Shown piece after piece: positions 50,535 through 61,242 of a DNA stretch of 64,000 nt. Every line of letters starts with the position of its first letter. Within the stretch, counting starts at the first letter, position 1. The DNA is taken from assembly GCF_900107455.1 (NCBI RefSeq), contig NZ_FNQB01000003.1:1054001-1118000 (forward strand), read 5' to 3'. Source of the DNA: Asanoa ishikariensis (lineage in GTDB: Bacteria > Actinomycetota > Actinomycetes > Mycobacteriales > Micromonosporaceae). The notes under the pieces were generated by a model. It was not told the DNA's origin, did no database searches, and worked only from the letters and a program-made list of their open reading frames with translations. Made by a program: the position numbers and the translations under genes.

Positions 50535-53500
50535 TCAGCTTCCGAACACCTCCAGGTTGAAGAGGGAGTAGCCGTACGCCGTACCCCGGGCGGTGCCGTA
50601 GATCCGCAGGTACCGGCCACTGGCCGACAGGCCGGTGTTGTCGTCCTCGCCGCCGTTACCGCCCGTCACCGTCCGTGCGACGGTCCAGGTGGTGCCGTTG
50701 GTCGAGGTCTCTATCCGGTATGCGGAGCCGTACGCGGCCTCCCAGAGCAACCGCACCCGGCTGATCGAGTACGTCGCGCCGAGGTCGACCTGGATCCACT
50801 GCGGGTCGGCGAACGCGCTCGACCACCGGGTGGTGGTGGACGCGTCGACGGCCAGCGAGGCCGGGAAGGCAGCGTTCTCGACGCTGGAGGCCGTCGCCGG
50901 CTTGTTGAGCGCCACGTTGGTCGCCGTCGGTGGCTGGCCGCCACCGCCGTAGACCTCGAACGAGAACAGCGAGTAGCCCCACGCCGTGCCGCGGGCCGTG
51001 CCGTAGATCCGGACGTAGCGGCCGCTGGCGCCCAGAGCGGTGTTGTCGTCCTCGCCGCCGTTACCGCCCGTCACCGTCCGTGCGACGGTCCAGGTGGTGC
51101 CGTTGGTCGAGGTCTCTATCCGGTACGCGGAGCCGTACGCGGCCTCCCAGAGCAACCGCACCCGGTCGATCGAGTACGTCGCGCCGAGGTCGACCTGGAT
51201 CCACTGCGGGTCGGCGAACGCGCTGGCCCACCGGGTGGTGGCCGAGGCGTCCACCGCGGCCGACGCCGGGTACACGTCCGCTTCGACGCTGGAGGCCGTT
51301 GCCGGCTTGTTCAGCGCCAGGTTGGTGCCTGTCGGTGGGGTGCCGCCGCTCGTGAACGCGAACGAGTCGACGTTGAACAGCGCCGCGCCCGTGCCGCCGG
51401 TGAACACCAGGAACAGCGGTCCGGAGGTGGTCGGTGCGGTGATCGTGCCGGTCACGTCCGCGAACGTGTCGAACGACCCGGTTGCGGCAACGGTGGCCGT
51501 GCCGACGACCGTGCCCGTCGCGGAGCCCGACCTGATCGTGATCGTGCCGCCGCCACCGGCCGGTGCCGACACCCGGGCGGTGAACCCGGTGGCCAGTCCG
51601 GACAGGTAGTACGGGTTGAACGAGATCCAGTCGCCGTTGCTGACGTTGCCGACCGCGCTGCCACCCTGCGCCGCGGTCGAGGTCACGATCGCGACGCCCT
51701 GCTGGTTGCCGAAGTGCTCGGCCTGCCGCGCTCGCGGCTGCAGGACCACCGGGGTCGCGTTGATCGCGGTGGTCGAGCCCGGCGGGGTGTACGCGGCGTT
51801 GATGATGCCGAAGATGTTGGCCGAGACGTCGTGCTCGCCGTCCACCGTCGTCTGGATGTTGCCCGAGCACCCGGCCACGTTGGTGATCGGGTGGCCGTGC
51901 GAGTCGTGCCCGAGCACGTAGGTCACGTTGACCCGGGAACAGTCGATGGTCGGGTTGGCGGGGTCGGTGACGTTGACCGTGAACGGCACCTGGTCACCGA
52001 AGTTGAACAACCGGCCGGGTTGCGGCAACGACACACTGATCGTCGGACCGCCGACCCCGATCACCACGCTGGCCGTCGCGGAGGCGCCGGACGGGTCGCG
52101 GACCGTCAACGTGGCCGTGTACTGCCCGTTGGCGGTGTAGGTGAAGGACGGGTTCGCCGCCGTCGAGTCGACGGAGCCGTTCGTCTGGAAGTCCCAGGCG
52201 TACGTCAGCGGGTTGCCGTCCGGATCGGTGGAGCCGGCCGAGGAGAACTGCACGGTCAAGGGTGCCGTGCCGCCGGTCGGGTTGCCCGACGCGACCGCGA
52301 CCGGTGGCCGGTTGCCGCCGGTCACCTGGTACTCGATGCGGTAGACGGCCGAGTTGGCGTCGCCGCCGAACCAGCCGGTGCCGTAGTCGAGCACGTAGAG
52401 CGCGCCGTCGGGGCCGAACTCGTAGTCCATCACCTGGGTGCCGGTCCACGGGAAGTTCGTGATCGTACCCGGCGTGCCGTTGGCGTTGATGTTGATCGTC
52501 TTGATGAACCGGCGGCCGAACTCGGTGGCGAAGAACTTCCCGTCGTACGACGGCGGGAACTTCACGCTCGAGTTGAGCCCGGCGTTGTAGCGGTAGACCG
52601 CGCCGCCCATCGGCGAGAGGCTGCCGCAGCAGATCCCCGGCGGGTCCTGGCCGCCGCCGTAGGGCAGCCACGCCGCCCGGGACGCCGGCAGGGTGGTCAG
52701 ACCGGTGTTGTTGCGGGAGTTGTTGGTCGGACCGCCCGCGCAGTTGTATTGGCCCAGCGACGGTCCACTGGGGAACGTGTACTCGTGGTACGGGGTGTTG
52801 TAGTTGGAGCAGTACGGCCAGCCGTAGTTGCCGGGCTGGGTGATCCGCTCGTAGGAGACCGTGCCGGCCGGGCCACGGCTCGGGTCCGCGGTGCCCGCGT
52901 CCGGCCCGTAGTCGCCGAGGTAGACGATGCCGGTCGCCTTGTCGACGCTCATCCGGAACGGGTTGCGGAAGCCCATGGCGTACACCTCGGGCTTGGTGTT
53001 GGCCGTGCCCGGCGCAAACATGTTGCCGGACGGCACGGTGTAGCCACCGCCCGCCGACGGCTTGATCCGCAGGACCTTGCCGCGCAGGTCGTTGGTGTTG
53101 CCGGAGGAACGCTGCGCGTCGAAGGCCGGGTTGCGGTCGGTCCGCTCGTCCAGCGGCGCGTAGCCGCCGGAGTCGAACGGGTTGGTGTCGTCACCGGTCG
53201 ACAGATAGAGGTTGCCGGCCGCGTCGAAGTCGATGTCGCCACCGACGTGGCAGCACTGGCCGCGGCTGGCGGGCACGTCGATGACGGTCACCGCCGACGC
53301 CGGGTCGATCGTGTTGTCGGCCCGCACCGTGAACCGGGACAACCGGTTGACGCCGTCGAACGGCGCGAACTGGGCCGCCGTGCCGGTCGTCGGCGAGTCA
53401 CCGCCCGGTGTGGACAATGGTGGCGCGTAATAGAGGTAGACCCAGCGGTTGGTGGCGAAGCCCGGGTCGGCCTTGATGCTCTGCAGGCCCTCCTCGTCGT

Positions 53501-54443
53501 GTGAGTAGACCGGCAGGGTCAGCGCTACCTTGGTGTTGCCGGCGGCGTCGGTGTACCGCACGGTGCCGTCGCGCGAGGTGTGCAGCACACCACGGTCGGG
53601 CAGCACGGTCAGGCCCATCGGCTCGCCGGTCTCGGCGACGCCCTTGGCCAGTGTCACCTGGGCGAAGGCGCCGGGTGGGTCGACCGGTCCGGAGCCTACC
53701 GAGCAGTTGCCGGTGCCCTGCGCGGCGTACCGGATGCCGCCCAGCAGGTGGTTGCGGAAGTTGGTGTCCGCGTAGCTCTCCTGGGTGTGGCCCATGCCCG
53801 TGTACCAGGAACGGCCGCCGTCGTAGGCGCGACACCAGGCGATCGGGTGGTCACCCATGCCACCGCCGGTGTACGTCGACTCGTCCAAATTGGCCAGTAC
53901 CCGCACGTTGGCCCGAGGGTTGGTGCGGTAGCTGTACCACTCGTCGGTGCGGACCCAGTTGGCCGGCAGCCCCGCGGTCGACGGGTGGCTGCCGTCCTCG
54001 ACACGCACGGTCGCCTGTTGGATCGCCGGGTGCTGGAGGAAGTAGGCACCGACCAGGCTGCCGTACCACGACCAGTCGTACTCGGTGTCGGCCGCGGCGT
54101 GGACGCCCGCGTAGCCGCCGCCGGCGCGGACGTAACCCTCGAACGTGGTCTGCTGGGCGGCGTTGAGCACGTCGCCGGTGGTGGACAGGAAGATGACGGC
54201 CTGGAAGCGGGCCAGGTTGGCGGCCGTGAAGGCGTTGGCGTCTTCGGTGGCCTCGACAGTGAAGTTGTTCTGCGCGCCCAGCGACTGGATCGCGGTGATG
54301 CCCACCGGGATCGAGTCATGCCGGAACCCCGCCGTTTTGCTGAAAACCAGCACGGTGAAGTCGGCCGCGAGAGCGGGTGTCGCCGGAATTCCGACGAGTG
54401 CCGCTGCCACGAGGGCGACGCAGAGCAGGGCTCTGCGCACCAT
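50535..54443 (-). CDS. Secreted multidomain ThuA / sugar dehydrogenase / carbohydrate-binding protein
   Basis: 1302 residues with a Sec signal peptide (1-27, ending ATPALA). Domains in order: ThuA-like glutamine-amidotransferase fold (about 28-245, LVFSKTAGFRHDSI, AGVHAAADTEYDW, GMGHTQESYAD); a PQQ-type glucose/sorbosone dehydrogenase propeller (about 260-695, HDEEGLQSIKADPGF, QCCHVGGDIDFD, GNLYLSTGDD); a PKD domain (about 705-790); a further beta domain; a CBM6-like module (about 930-1040, QAEHFGNQQGV); and two near-identical F5/8 type C modules (about 1045-1165 and 1180-1302). It probably binds and oxidises or modifies a polysaccharide outside the cell. A LacI-type operator lies upstream. 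Confidence 0.88.
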   Translation of the reverse strand: MVRRALLCVALVAAALVGIPATPALAADFTVLVFSKTAGFRHDSIPVGITAIQSLGAQNNFTVEATEDANAFTAANLARFQAVIFLSTTGDVLNAAQQTTFEGYVRAGGGYAGVHAAADTEYDWSWYGSLVGAYFLQHPAIQQATVRVEDGSHPSTAGLPANWVRTDEWYSYRTNPRANVRVLANLDESTYTGGGMGDHPIAWCRAYDGGRSWYTGMGHTQESYADTNFRNHLLGGIRYAAQGTGNCSVGSGPVDPPGAFAQVTLAKGVAETGEPMGLTVLPDRGVLHTSRDGTVRYTDAAGNTKVALTLPVYSHDEEGLQSIKADPGFATNRWVYLYYAPPLSTPGGDSPTTGTAAQFAPFDGVNRLSRFTVRADNTIDPASAVTVIDVPASRGQCCHVGGDIDFDAAGNLYLSTGDDTNPFDSGGYAPLDERTDRNPAFDAQRSSGNTNDLRGKVLRIKPSAGGGYTVPSGNMFAPGTANTKPEVYAMGFRNPFRMSVDKATGIVYLGDYGPDAGTADPSRGPAGTVSYERITQPGNYGWPYCSNYNTPYHEYTFPSGPSLGQYNCAGGPTNNSRNNTGLTTLPASRAAWLPYGGGQDPPGICCGSLSPMGGAVYRYNAGLNSSVKFPPSYDGKFFATEFGRRFIKTININANGTPGTITNFPWTGTQVMDYEFGPDGALYVLDYGTGWFGGDANSAVYRIEYQVTGGNRPPVAVASGNPTGGTAPLTVQFSSAGSTDPDGNPLTYAWDFQTNGSVDSTAANPSFTYTANGQYTATLTVRDPSGASATASVVIGVGGPTISVSLPQPGRLFNFGDQVPFTVNVTDPANPTIDCSRVNVTYVLGHDSHGHPITNVAGCSGNIQTTVDGEHDVSANIFGIINAAYTPPGSTTAINATPVVLQPRARQAEHFGNQQGVAIVTSTAAQGGSAVGNVSNGDWISFNPYYLSGLATGFTARVSAPAGGGGTITIRSGSATGTVVGTATVAATGSFDTFADVTGTITAPTTSGPLFLVFTGGTGAALFNVDSFAFTSGGTPPTGTNLALNKPATASSVEADVYPASAAVDASATTRWASAFADPQWIQVDLGATYSIDRVRLLWEAAYGSAYRIETSTNGTTWTVARTVTGGNGGEDDNTALGASGRYVRIYGTARGTAWGYSLFSFEVYGGGGQPPTATNVALNKPATASSVENAAFPASLAVDASTTTRWSSAFADPQWIQVDLGATYSISRVRLLWEAAYGSAYRIETSTNGTTWTVARTVTGGNGGEDDNTGLSASGRYLRIYGTARGTAYGYSLFNLEVFGS
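50560..51310 (-). repeat. Tandem duplicated discoidin-domain coding sequence (405-bp offset)
   Basis: The two F5/8C modules are nearly identical over long DNA stretches. For example, the block starting at 50634 recurs at 51039, a shift of exactly 405 bp (135 codons), pointing to a recent internal duplication. Confidence 0.85.
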
Positions 54444-56829: not shown

Positions 56830-57013
56830 CGCCACTCCCGTCGAAAGCGCCACCATCTCGATGAGGTAGTCGGACGAACTCCGCGGCCAGTTCCCACCGC
56901 GGCAGTGTTCACGCGGCCGACCCCTGAAGATCACCTTCGAGGTCCTGCGGGGGTCACGGACGGTGGAGAGACTGGGCCGTTCGTAAGGTCCGCGCTAGCC
57001 GGAGCGTGTTTCC

Positions 57014-57712
57014 GTGATCTCCCTCAGTACCCGTGCGCTGATGACGTTGAGCGTCCTGTCAGCCGCCGCCGTCGGTGCGACGCTGGCCCCGGGCCGCGCG
57101 TCGGCGCACCCGTTCGGCGACCCGCAGACGGTGGCCATCAGCCTTGACGCTGACCGCGGCGACCTCGTCCATGTGACGTGGCGGGTCGGCGGACCGGATG
57201 ACCTCACGGTGCTCGGCGTCTCCCTAGGCGTGCTGCCCGAGGACCGCATCCTGACCGACGGTGCGGTGGACTACCGCTACACCGATCCGGGCGTTCTCGG
57301 CAAGTCCGAGCAGTTCCGGCGCTACCTGCTGGACCGGATCACCATCACCAACGACGGCCAGCCGTGCGTCGGCAGCGTGGAACCGATCCTCGCCCTCGGG
57401 CTCAAGGGCGCCACCGCCGATTACATCTGCGCCCAACCCGTCACCACGGCCACCGTCGCGGTCCGGATGCTGACCGACCTCAACCCCGCTTACCGCACCC
57501 TTGCCACCGGACCCAGCGGACAGAAGTCGGTGTACGACGGGTCCGCCGACACCCACGACTGGACCCTGGTCGGCGCACCACCGCTGGCCGAAGCCGACCG
57601 AGGCCGCAGCGCCGTCCTGCAGCTCGCCGCCGTGATCGGTCTGATCCTGGTCGTCGCGGCCGGCTACCTGTTGACGGTGCGCCGGCTGCGTCGCCGGAAG
57701 GTGGCGGCATGA
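57014..57712 (+). CDS. Exported membrane-anchored protein of the NicO locus
   Basis: 232 residues with a signal peptide (ending GRASA), a mature N-terminus HPFGDPQTVAI, an extracytoplasmic beta-rich domain with a Cys pair (GQPCVG, DYICAQ), and a C-terminal helix with basic tail (AVIGLILVVAAGYLL..RRLRRRK). It resembles the exported proteins that accompany nickel/cobalt-type permeases. The mature N-terminal His could bind metal (inference). Its stop overlaps the NicO start by 4 nt (ATGA). Confidence 0.65.
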   Translation: MISLSTRALMTLSVLSAAAVGATLAPGRASAHPFGDPQTVAISLDADRGDLVHVTWRVGGPDDLTVLGVSLGVLPEDRILTDGAVDYRYTDPGVLGKSEQFRRYLLDRITITNDGQPCVGSVEPILALGLKGATADYICAQPVTTATVAVRMLTDLNPAYRTLATGPSGQKSVYDGSADTHDWTLVGAPPLAEADRGRSAVLQLAAVIGLILVVAAGYLLTVRRLRRRKVAA

Positions 57713-58473
57713 GCACGGCCACCTCCGTCTCGGACCGCCTTCAGGACCTGATCCAGACTCCCGGCGTACCGGCGGTGGCGTTCCTGTTCGCCTTCCTCGC
57801 CGGCGCCTGGCACGCCGTGACCCCTGGGCACGGCAAGACGCTGGCCGCCGCCTACCTCGCCGGATCCAAGGGGCGCATCCGCGACGCCGCCTGGCTCGGC
57901 GGCTCCGTCGCGGTCATGCACACCCTCTCCGTCCTGGTCATCGGCGTCGCCTGGACCTTCCTGTCGCTGTCGGACGTGGTGCGGATGGAGCAGCTCACCA
58001 CCGGGCTGCAGATCGCCGCCGGGGTGCTGGTGGCGACCACCGGCATCTGGATGCTGCGCCGGCATCTGCGCGGCCACAGTCACGGGCACTCGCACGACCA
58101 TGGCCATGGGCACACCCACGAGCATCACCATCATGAGCCGTCCAAGCGCCCCGGCCTGTTGCTGCTGGGCATCTCCGGTGGCTTGACGCCGTCGCCGGCC
58201 GCGTTCCTGGTGCTGGCGACCGGTCTGTTCCTCGGCCGAGGCGCCTTCGCTCTGCTGCTGGTCATCGTCTTCGGCATCGGCATGGCGGTCGTGCTGTTCG
58301 CCGTCGGCGTTCTCGCCGTTGCCGGCAGCACCGTCGTCAGCCGCAGCGCCCGGTCCGTCAAGGCCCTGCGGCTCGCCAGCCGGATCACCCCGGTCCTGGC
58401 CGCCGGCGGTGTCACCCTCTTCGGTGCCGGCCTGGTCACGGTCGCCGCGGTCCACCTCGCGACCGTCAGCTAG
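57709..58473 (+). CDS. NicO-family nickel/cobalt-type permease with His-rich loop
   Basis: 254 residues with about six helices. Family motifs: FLAGAWHAVTPGHGKTLAAAYL (HxxxGH-like) in the second helix and ISGGLTPSPAAFLVLATGLFLGRG in the second half. The cytosolic loop between holds a dense His tract (about residues 122-142). This is the RcnA/NicO arrangement for export or uptake of Ni2+, Co2+ or similar ions. It is co-translated with the exported protein and lies beside the copper-linked YcnI gene. The stop overlaps the converging GNAT gene. Confidence 0.85.
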   Translation: MSTATSVSDRLQDLIQTPGVPAVAFLFAFLAGAWHAVTPGHGKTLAAAYLAGSKGRIRDAAWLGGSVAVMHTLSVLVIGVAWTFLSLSDVVRMEQLTTGLQIAAGVLVATTGIWMLRRHLRGHSHGHSHDHGHGHTHEHHHHEPSKRPGLLLLGISGGLTPSPAAFLVLATGLFLGRGAFALLLVIVFGIGMAVVLFAVGVLAVAGSTVVSRSARSVKALRLASRITPVLAAGGVTLFGAGLVTVAAVHLATVS

Positions 58474-58901
58474 CGCGACCGGTCGTCGAGGCTCAGGATC
58501 AGGCTGTAGTCGCGGAATCCCAACGCGCGCCAGAACGCGAGGCCGCGCTCGTTGTGGACCAGGGCGTCGAGCTTGACCGGCTTGTCGCCCCAGCGTTCGC
58601 GCAGGACGGCGAAGCCGGCGCGGCCGAGGCCTTCGCGCCGATGGTCGCGGCTGACGAAGAACTGCCGCACGTAGATGCCGTCCTCGTCGTCGCGCCAGAC
58701 CGCGTAAGCGACCGGCAGCCCGCCACGCTCGATGAACGCGACGGCGTACTGGCCACCGGAGATCCACCGCCGCATCCGCGCTTCGAGGTCGGCGTCGGTG
58801 GCCGTGCTGTGGTGGTGCTGATCCTCGATGAGGTGCCGGTTGAGCACCGCGAGCAGTGGTGCGTCGACCAGGGCGGCCGAGCGGGCGACAAGCTCCGTCA
58901 T
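58470..58901 (-). CDS. GNAT-family N-acetyltransferase
   Basis: 143 residues. It shows the GNAT core: FIERGGLPVAYAVWRDD, then IYVRQFFVSRDHRREGLGRAGF, the acetyl-CoA loop (Q/R-x-x-G-x-G/A appears as RREGLG), and NERGLAFWRALGFRDYS. Substrate unknown. ATG 58901 fits the domain start; GTG 58961 would add 20 poorly conserved residues. Inverted repeats at 58903-59023 flank its start. Confidence 0.78.
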   Translation of the reverse strand: MTELVARSAALVDAPLLAVLNRHLIEDQHHHSTATDADLEARMRRWISGGQYAVAFIERGGLPVAYAVWRDDEDGIYVRQFFVSRDHRREGLGRAGFAVLRERWGDKPVKLDALVHNERGLAFWRALGFRDYSLILSLDDRSR

Positions 58902-58902
58902 G

Positions 58903-58986
58903 GCGTGGAACGACCCAACCTTTCGCAGGTCCCCTGAGGAGGTGATCGGTGTGAGCGGCACGCCGGCCGATCGGGTCGTTCCACGC
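58903..58986. repeat. 14-bp inverted repeat around the GNAT start
   Basis: gcgtggaacgaccc (58903-58916) and gggtcgttccacgc (58973-58986) are exact reverse complements separated by 56 nt, immediately upstream of the GNAT ATG. Confidence 0.7.
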
Positions 58987-58998
58987 GTTCACTATGCC

Positions 58999-59023
58999 GT
59001 TGTTGCCAAGACTTTGCAACAAC
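58999..59023. promoter_or_regulatory. Inverted repeat GTTGTTGC-N9-GCAACAAC
   Basis: Eight-bp arms at 58999-59006 and 59016-59023 in the gap between the SecA-like gene end and the GNAT gene form a candidate dimeric repressor operator. No regulator gene is adjacent. Confidence 0.5.
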
Positions 59024-59067
59024 CAAGAGAATGCAGAAGCACCGCTGTCCGACCCGTACAGCCTCGG

Positions 59068-60619
59068 CTAGGGCTCGACGTTGAGGGCGTATCCGAGGGT
59101 GTGCTCGACCGTCACCAGCCGGCACCACGCGAAGAGCCTCTCCAGGACCGCAGCAGGTCTGAGCGACTCATCCGTGACGTTCCCGTGGCGTTGGACGAAC
59201 CGCACCCGGCCGAGATGCGCCGCCCACTGCTCGTCCATCACGAGCAGCGATGTCTGGCGCAGGAGCTCGTTCATCTGGTCGTCGCCCATACCCGCCGCCC
59301 GCGCGGCCAGCGCGTCCATCAGGAAACGTTCCGCGTCGTTCGGATCTGCGGCCCGGTACGCCTCCGCCCCGAGCACGTCATGCAGGCCGCGCTCGACCTC
59401 CCCGGCCCCCCACGCCGACCAGGCAGCGACCGCCGCCGCCGGAATTGACCGCAGCGCCAGCCGGCCGTCGAAGCGGTCCCTGACCTCGTGGCGGTCGCGA
59501 TAGAAGACGGACCGCTGCTCGTCGATGATCCTCTCGAACGCGAGATCGACCCGGGCGGGTACGGCCCCGCGCGACCGCGACAACCAGGGACGTCGGCCGC
59601 GAGGGGCATAATGCCCCAGCCCGAAGATCGCGCCCACCGCGTCGGCGCATCCCGACCGTCGGTCCACAACGCCCGCGAGCGTGCGGTAACCGCGAAGCAG
59701 GCCCTGCGTCGTGATATCCGCAAGGACCACGTGCACATCCTCGTCGGCAAGGCCTTCCCGCTGGAGGAGCAACCTTTCCACCTCCCGGGCCACGTCGAGG
59801 GCCCGCGCCAGATCCTCCGGTCCGCACGACACAGGCCGCAGTCGACCCACCGCCCCATCGCCGAAACGGATTCCGGCGTCGGGCCCCCCACACCTCGTAG
59901 TCCTCGCCCCGCCGAAGCTGCTCCGCCTTCGCCGCCACCCACTCCGCCCGGCCCGACGGCGAGTGCGATCCACGTCCCGAGAGATAGGTGATGACCGGTG
60001 CCGCGTCAACGAGGACGGCGCAGCCGTCGGCGACGACCGCCGCCGCGAGGCCCCGCTGCACCGCCTCCGCGGCCGAGTCCCGCAGGTTGTCGCGGAGATA
60101 GTCGGCGGCGAGTTGCTTGTACGCGCCGACGGTAACCGTCGCCGCGTACGCGCGCCGCCGCCGCGGCGCGTCCGTCTCGGCGAGCACGAGCCCGGCGTCA
60201 CCGGGCAGCAGGTCCATCACCGACGCCAGCAACGCGTGCACCTCGCGGCTGCGCCAGTCGTCGGCAGTCACGACGTGGACGCCGTCGCCGGCCAGCCCGA
60301 ACCAGTAGGCCGCGAGCGTGGTGGCCGCGGCGATGTCGCCCGTGGACCGCAGCTCCGCCACCGCACCCTGAGTCATGGCCGCCGCCGCCGCGACGGCACG
60401 GTTCGACACGCCGGCGCCGCTCGCGCGCGACAAGGCTTCCCGGCCGAGAGCCATGGCCCGCGCCGTCAACTCCCTCGAGATGCCCACGTCCGCCCGCTCG
60501 GCGGCGAGGCCTCGCGAGGCTCCCCGGAGCTCATCGGCGGACGAGCCGCGGACCGTCGACCCCAACGCGTTGGTCCGCCCGACGAGCCACGAGACGTCCT
60601 CGGTACCGACGGGCGTCAC
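59068..60619 (-). pseudogene. SecA-like protein lacking ATPase motifs and NBD2, with one frameshift
   Basis: Two frames together give about 516 residues that follow SecA collinearly. The N-terminal region is RTNALG...SADELRGASRGL. The SecA motif I region is AELRSTGDIAAATTLAAYWF, where TGDIA replaces GEGKT. DGVHVVTADDW matches GVHVVTVNDY, and YLRDNL is retained. The Walker B block reads ADGCAVLVDAA instead of DEVDSILIDEA. After the break come ADITTQGLLRGYRTLAGVV and FGLGHYAPRGRRPWL (SecA [35 protein letters not shown]). NBD2 is missing, and VFYRDRHEV and LLVMDEQWAAHLGRV match the helical scaffold. The frames join at a C6 run (59884-59889). GTG 60619 has GGAGG 5 nt upstream. Confidence 0.72.
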
Positions 60620-60777
60620 GACGACCTCCAGGTTCTGCTCGCCGACTTCGTCGTACGCGCTACTGACCACGGCGGCGGCGCCCGTGGTTCAAACATTGGT
60701 CCTAACAGATGAAGGTGTGGGCCGACTACCCTGACCTGAATCGGACCAGCGCTGGCATCTCACTCTCTGGAGACCAT

Positions 60778-61242
60778 ATGCGCGGCACCAGTATTGGCGC
60801 GTGCCCGCTCCGCGCCCATCTCGATCCGCGCCTCCTACGGTTCAGCGCCGGGGCCACGGCGGGCGTGCTTGCCGTCGTGCTGCTCATCGTTGACGTCGCT
60901 CGACCATTGGGTCTCGGCCTGCTCGCCTCCCAGGTCGCCATGTTCGCGTTCACCGCGTTCGTGAGTTTTCAGTGGTCGTTGTGGGCGCAGATCTTCGCCC
61001 GTGTCATCTGGCCGCGGATCGGAGCGCCAGCCGAGTTGGAGGATGCTCGGCCACCGAGATTCGCGCAGTTCATCGGCTTCGTGTTCACCGCCTTGGCGCT
61101 GACCACCTTTGCACTCGGCGCCGATGTCGCCGGCTACAGCCTCACCGCCCTCGCCTTCGGCATGGCAGCCCTCAACGCGTCCACTGGGCTGTGTTTGGGG
61201 TGCAGGGCCTACCACCTGATCCGCCGACTGAAACCGGCCTGA
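60778..61242 (+). CDS. DUF4395 membrane protein
   Basis: 154 residues with four transmembrane helices and the DUF4395 pattern: an N-terminal DPRLLRFSAG segment before helix 1, the middle loop ARVIWPRIGAPAELEDARPPRFAQFIGFVF, and the C-terminal LNASTGLCLGCRAYHL Cys motif. The CxxC-like pair suggests a redox or rhodanese/thioredoxin-linked role. ATG 60778 has GGAGA 6 nt upstream. A TACCCT box at 60727-60732 could be its promoter. Confidence 0.82.
   Translation: MRGTSIGACPLRAHLDPRLLRFSAGATAGVLAVVLLIVDVARPLGLGLLASQVAMFAFTAFVSFQWSLWAQIFARVIWPRIGAPAELEDARPPRFAQFIGFVFTALALTTFALGADVAGYSLTALAFGMAALNASTGLCLGCRAYHLIRRLKPA

Follow-up and report, generated by a model that had tools for sequence, protein, structure and literature searches.

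SecA is essential, and to our knowledge its known paralogues, SecA1 and SecA2, are ATP-driven motors. The genome analysed here holds two ordinary SecA genes, which by their sequences are SecA1- and SecA2-type, and besides these a third, SecA-like gene, located at 59068..60619 (minus strand) of the window, i.e. the whole 64-kb stretch of DNA that was analysed. This third gene descends from a SecA. With the resident SecA1-type translocase ATPase (969 aa, G000:C2) it has in common the NBD1 fold and, apparently, the order of NBD1, LAGMTG block, scaffold helix and finger helices. The resident SecA1 additionally possesses P-loop_SecA (NBD2), SecA_PP_bind and SEC-C domains, none of which was detected in the SecA-like gene, as well as the GEGKT and DEVD motifs, which the SecA-like gene has lost. 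Like the accessory SecA2 (TIGR04221; resident copy at G000:C3:1663k), it represents an extra SecA beside SecA1, yet the resident SecA2-type copy keeps TGEGKT, DEAD and the NBD2 motif LRGRAGRQGD and occurs in all six genomes of the genus, whereas the SecA-like gene occurs in one. A further comparison is offered by the SecA-N68 and isolated DEAD-motor constructs of Escherichia coli SecA (PDB 5k9t and 3bxz), which are laboratory fragments of SecA and in which NBD1 is likewise kept. As described in the entry titles and in PMC5603524, these constructs drop the C-terminal helices and keep the motor domains, while the SecA-like gene does the opposite. Among the open-access PMC papers screened by title and abstract opening, no report of a SecA paralogue without its ATPase was found.

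Organisation of the SecA-like gene

The gene consists of two reading frames in series, starting with a GTG at 60619, which is preceded at a distance of five bases by the Shine-Dalgarno-like sequence GGAGG (60625..60629, minus strand), and terminating with a TAG at 59068-59070. SecA NBD1 is readable in the first frame from the GTG down to about 59890 (the 5' piece, 59884..60619, minus strand), and at or near a C6 run on the minus-strand gene (59884..59889; G6 in the mRNA) the SecA-like sequence moves to the second frame (the 3' piece), which is open until the TAG. The coordinates and frames agree with those of the initial annotation. The GC content by codon position tracks the frame switch, since the first frame loses its third-position maximum between the 150-base windows that begin at 59950 and 59890. 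Neither piece contains an internal stop codon.

The presence of a frame change is among the points in favour of a decaying relic, i.e. a SecA paralogue, perhaps from an unsampled lineage, which has been stripped of the motor and survives as a functionless pseudogene, the frame change being a real step of decay. Alternatively, the gene may encode a working non-motor protein and the frame change may represent an assembly or sequencing error, or slippage at the G6 of the mRNA. This explanation, which overlaps with the pseudoenzyme reading discussed below, is considered rather unlikely. It is consistent with the position of the change at or near a homopolymer and with both frames being otherwise open, and by eye the SecA alignment appears to cross the change without a change in length. 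Seven C6/G6 runs occur in the window, two of which are situated in the SecA-like gene (59406-59411 and 59884-59889) and three between predicted ORFs; as the remaining two sit within ORFs that stay open, general homopolymer errors are not indicated for the window, which argues against this explanation. In addition, we know of no slippage at a run as short as G6. It is also conceivable, although highly improbable, that this is a split SecA encoding two proteins, in which the 5' frame yields an NBD1 protein while translation of the 3' frame begins at an internal start such as the GTG at 59730. While GAGGA precedes this GTG in the second frame, that frame is already SecA-like upstream of it (in a block beginning at 59760), and the first frame continues past the switch as R/G-rich sequence that is open to 59378.

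Relationship to SecA

Profile searches with the 5' piece returned Pfam SecA_DEAD with 102.1 bits (E 4.3e-29), which is above the cut-off of 24.6, and TIGR00963 secA with 87.8 bits (E 5.1e-25), while the match to TIGR04221 (actinobacterial accessory SecA2) scored 74.4 bits (E 5.8e-21) for the 5' piece alone and thus below the curated cut-off of 725. The 3' piece matched Pfam SecA_SW (scaffold and wing, PF07516) with 22.3 bits (E 1.5e-4) against a curated cut-off of 26.7. A SecA profile of our own, built from 70 fetched SecA sequences and with E-values from a search of only two sequences, identified three collinear segments: positions 26-255 in the 5' piece (117.1 bits), positions 343-374 at 59665..59760 in the 3' piece (minus strand; 5.8 bits, a weak match) and positions 644-775 at 59194..59544, likewise in the 3' piece (minus strand; 20.9 bits). 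The last of these corresponds to the scaffold, wing and finger helices, ahead of which NBD2 is missing.

When the pieces were compared with the PDB by phmmer, all 24 sequences matched by the 5' piece at E up to 1e-3 were SecA or SecA2. The best match (E 2.3e-21) placed residues 31-236 on residues 14-219 of E. coli SecA, a gapless alignment over 206 residues; the 3' piece matched no SecA in this search. AlphaFold2 predicted a RecA-like fold for the 5' piece (mean pLDDT 76.7, pTM 0.73) and returned a mean pLDDT of 60.5 and a pTM of 0.53 for the 3' piece. The top 36 Foldseek matches of the 5' model were all SecA, as were the top 15 of the 3' model, the best of these at E 2.4e-3 and none at E 0.001. 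Both models lean towards SecA because the input alignments contained SecA rows; even so, SecA ranks first among the structure matches and no unrelated helical protein matched better. The SecA derivation proposed in the initial annotation is thereby borne out, above all by the SecA_DEAD and secA matches and the three collinear segments. A chance resemblance, or an unrelated protein of the helical or RecA type, has a practically negligible probability: the 3' piece on its own is weak in the Pfam, phmmer and Foldseek comparisons, but the E-value of the 5' piece, the collinearity of the segments and the first rank of SecA among the structure matches stand against it, and for the 5' piece such an origin is already refuted.

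That either resident gene, SecA1 or SecA2, was recently copied to give rise to the SecA-like gene was rejected in view of an NBD1 identity of 26.5% to the former, and the same to the latter, and by the position of the gene in a tree of 68 NBD1 sequences, where it sits on a saturated branch (8.9-10 changes per site) that allows no placement. Two further assignments were rejected, namely that of a defence gene (no PADLOC hit) and that of a phage gene, where the 5' piece matched phrog_32805, a family of 806 positions and unknown function that probably represents SecA itself, and the 3' piece had no phrog match.

Motifs and domains lost and retained

Residues 26-238 of the 5' piece (213 residues) align with the SecA majority sequence without a gap on either side, including across motif I and Walker B, as had been claimed. 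On the minus strand, the Walker A (motif I) position at 60329..60346 carries STGDIA instead of TGEGKT, the Walker B (motif II) position at 60020..60031 carries ADGC instead of DEVD, and VDAA is present instead of IDEA at 59999..60010; the motif Ia block GVHVVT (60266..60283) and the motif Ib block DYLRDN (60086..60103) are kept. Among the 97 columns with at least 80% conservation, only 4 of the 23 belonging to ATP motifs (Q motif, Walker A, Walker B/IDEA) are kept, as opposed to 36 of the 74 others (Fisher p 0.008, the test treating neighbouring columns as independent). Hydrophobic columns are still hydrophobic in 56 of 68 cases, and this kept hydrophobic core, together with the start signals, argues against a relic; the many conserved residues replaced by A, G or R, as judged by eye, argue for one.

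Profile positions 256-342 (87 positions, constituting most of the preprotein domain) are reduced to about 46 unrecognisable residues, and positions 375-643, NBD2 included, to about 40 residues. At E up to 1, Pfam matches were detected neither for NBD2 (P-loop_SecA, PF21090) nor for the preprotein cross-linking domain (SecA_PP_bind, PF01043), for which the resident SecA1 scores 304.8 and 130.5 bits, respectively, nor for the SEC-C/C-terminal tail that is found in the resident SecA1. The loss of both domains as originally described therefore stands for NBD2, while the preprotein domain is shortened and unrecognisable and not simply absent. Retention of the LAGMTG-like block and of the scaffold helix, which had also been described, is suggested by the second and third profile segments, respectively. 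Beyond the LAGMTG-like block, the residues appear by eye to track SecA as far as the NBD1-NBD2 border (GAIFGLGHYAPRGRRPWLSR versus REIYGL...PTNRPMIR). An additional loss, beyond those first listed, affects the loop of the two-helix finger, which is nine columns short in a domain-wise alignment. The losses fall about at domain borders, when these are taken from a SecA2 described in PMC7503281; the finger loop of Clostridioides difficile SecA2 comprises nine residues within the SecY contact region, and both of its Walker motifs lie at the NBD1-NBD2 interface (PMC7503281).

Distribution of related genes

SecA1- and SecA2-type genes are both present in six of the six genomes of the genus, and the third gene in one. 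No orthologue of it was found in the 353 other genomes of the family, including five congeners. Its occurrence in one of six genus genomes and one of 354 family genomes favours a relic. The initial annotation had pointed to full-length orthologues with a conserved frame in relatives as the evidence to look for, and the absence of these from all searches counts against its proposal.

Searches with the 3' piece, in genome sets that overlap in part, recovered the own genome only among 61 genomes of relatives and among 397 genomes of the order. Fifteen of the 354 family genomes matched at E up to 0.01, of which only the own genome did so strongly, the best other match scoring 21.5 bits; the weak matches lie at 15 non-self places in the 14 other genomes. 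Seven of these (L051, L055-L058, L061 and L062) are located at the finger helices in ORFs of SecA length (958-974 aa), while L054, a periplasmic-binding-protein-like gene, and L049, which has no Pfam hit, were dismissed. One of 375 genomes of a second family matched (L137), in a gene that is not SecA, and none of 341 genomes of a third, a set without a positive control.

In a sample of 394 genomes of the class, 385 contained a match to the 5' piece, as expected of SecA. The best non-self match among these 394 genomes (103.8 bits, 34% identity) lies in a 1062-residue frame with GEGKT, DEVD and the NBD2 motif. A motif check of 70 fetched loci revealed that 65 carry GEGKT and DE[VIA]D within a single ORF. 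The other five comprise the SecA-like gene itself, fetched twice (L005 and L006), a frame at a contig edge that has GEGKT (L014), and L118 and L120. The latter two are ORFs without a SecA motif that look like chance matches and were rejected as relatives. Scans with peptide patterns yielded one Clostridia SecA from genome contigs and nothing from viral contigs, such scans requiring short exact peptides, so that relatives at roughly 60% identity and below are estimated to escape them. In two genomes of family f33 (L110 and L111, in G522 and G672), a second SecA1-type protein, in one case in a 1604-residue open frame, forms its own clade beside the usual SecA1.

Matches to the 5' piece were also obtained in 79 plasmid and 16 phage records. 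Among the matches listed (40 of the 79 for plasmids), identity is 36% or less and many are annotated secA, while several plasmid and phage records have no annotation under the match; a Nonomuraea record among the matches is likewise without annotation. The 3' piece had no match in plasmid or phage records. A plasmid gene of Candidatus Chlorohelix was rejected as a relative, as it has all SecA domains, NBD2 included. This gene of Candidatus Chlorohelix allophototropha (L097, 4923-7583) is a complete-looking SecA annotated as hypothetical protein, and stands beside a gene for an A24 family peptidase.

Coding history and possible function

In a neutral simulation, the NBD1 segment of the resident SecA1 was taken to 34% identity, which required about 390 changes and introduced a mean of 3.8-7.0 stops depending on the base equilibrium. 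Only one of 240 neutral runs was free of stops, as compared with zero stops in the real NBD1 sequence, in a simulation that assumes a SecA1-like start (SecA1 need not be the ancestor) and counts substitutions only. A gene free of constraint would not be expected to diverge this far and acquire no stops, and the result therefore supports a coding history, in keeping with the earlier opinion that this is not simply a worn pseudogene. The difference between GC3 and GC2 is 0.34 in both pieces, and the neutral runs (n=200) gave a mean of 0.22 and a maximum of 0.34; because the real value about equals the highest neutral run, the codon-position contrast is no independent proof of constraint. The well-kept coding bias noted at the outset is thus present, but its weight is reduced, as the 3' piece has a GC3 of 0.84, lower than the 0.91 of the 5' piece, and the contrast alone is compatible with neutral drift. 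The lower GC3 of the 3' piece and the raised GC2 of the 5' piece (0.58; the SecA1 NBD1 segment has 0.39, the SecA2 frame 0.50) are in favour of a relic. Conversely, both pieces are devoid of stops and no indel has occurred across 213 NBD1 residues at this divergence, whereas a relic decaying after loss of its ATPase should carry more lesions.

The best explanation, which we advance tentatively and with slightly less than even confidence, is that of a pseudoenzyme which derives from SecA, has long been under coding constraint and was functional until recently or still is; a relic is almost as likely. Points against the pseudoenzyme are the lack of an orthologue, the interrupted frame and the saturated branch. 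The sequence shows that a SecA gave rise to the gene, that Walker A and Walker B, the larger part of the Q motif, NBD2, the recognisable preprotein domain and the finger loop are gone, and that the indel-free NBD1 core has been retained together with helices like those of the scaffold that packs on NBD1. Its history as a paralogue would most likely have taken place outside the sampled lineages, and the assembled copy would now be interrupted through either a recent real mutation or a sequence error. For most of its history, the gene would have been translated as a compact non-motor SecA fold of about 515 residues, with no SecA-like binding or hydrolysis of ATP expected. As a weak guess, it may bind the resident SecA proteins or their preproteins, either competing with them in an inactive form or taking part in a mixed dimer, and would not do so via entry into the SecY channel. 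Given the loss of the finger loop and of a recognisable preprotein domain, a role inside this channel is unlikely, and these losses also render the originally suggested binding partner or regulator of the Sec channel less likely.

The more specific proposition, that an unsampled actinomycete branch maintains a functional, compact pseudo-SecA without NBD2 or ATP site, which regulates the resident SecA1 or SecA2 or acts as their decoy and has been seen here in one strain, is unlikely. If true, a natural motor-less SecA fold would reveal which parts of the protein can serve without ATP, and it would provide a natural competitor of the export machine. As the copy is single and interrupted, the SecA-like gene is a lead rather than a system.

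Genomic surroundings

The left flank is formed by a copy of a nik-type promoter element (58902..59045), three further copies of which, about 91-92% identical, occur in the genome. The homology ends at 59045, 22 bases short of the stop of the SecA-like gene. At loci L122 and L123, the element precedes an operon for a solute-binding protein and a permease, with NicO-type and superoxide dismutase genes on the other side, and at locus L124 the sequence following the element is rearranged. At the SecA-like gene, the element stands alone and the operon is missing. A rearranged site of this kind, with the promoter severed from its operon, is a further point in favour of a relic.

Within the element, positions 59000-59022 contain the palindrome TTGTTGCCAAGACTTTGCAACAA, which resembles a Nur operator. 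In Streptomyces coelicolor, Nur represses sodF and nikABCDE (PMC7055735). Loci L122 (G000:C2, 2247500-2253500) and L123 (G000:C6, 385000-391500) carry duplicated genes for superoxide dismutase, a NicO-type nickel transporter and a peptide/nickel-type ABC transporter, and parts of these blocks are 80-92% alike in DNA to positions 56906-59045 of the window, so that a nickel-homeostasis cassette is present more than once in this genome.

On the right, homology to congeners restarts between 60673 and 60747, and the congener matches listed within 59046-60672 do not exceed about 55 bases; consequently, about 1.63 kb are private to this genome within the genus sample. The adjoining DUF4395 gene (60709..61242, plus strand) is found in four congeners with other left neighbours. 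The initial annotation had suggested looking for the same neighbours in relatives, but the left neighbour of the DUF4395 gene differs in all four congeners and the glyoxalase gene to its right is common to one, which provides no link to the SecA-like gene. The DUF4395 gene carries a CLGCRAYHL motif and shows 86-89% DNA likeness in the four congeners. Elsewhere in the window, a protein of 1302 residues encoded at 50535-54443 combines ThuA, glucose/sorbosone dehydrogenase, PKD and CBM6 stretches with two of the F5/8 type C kind.
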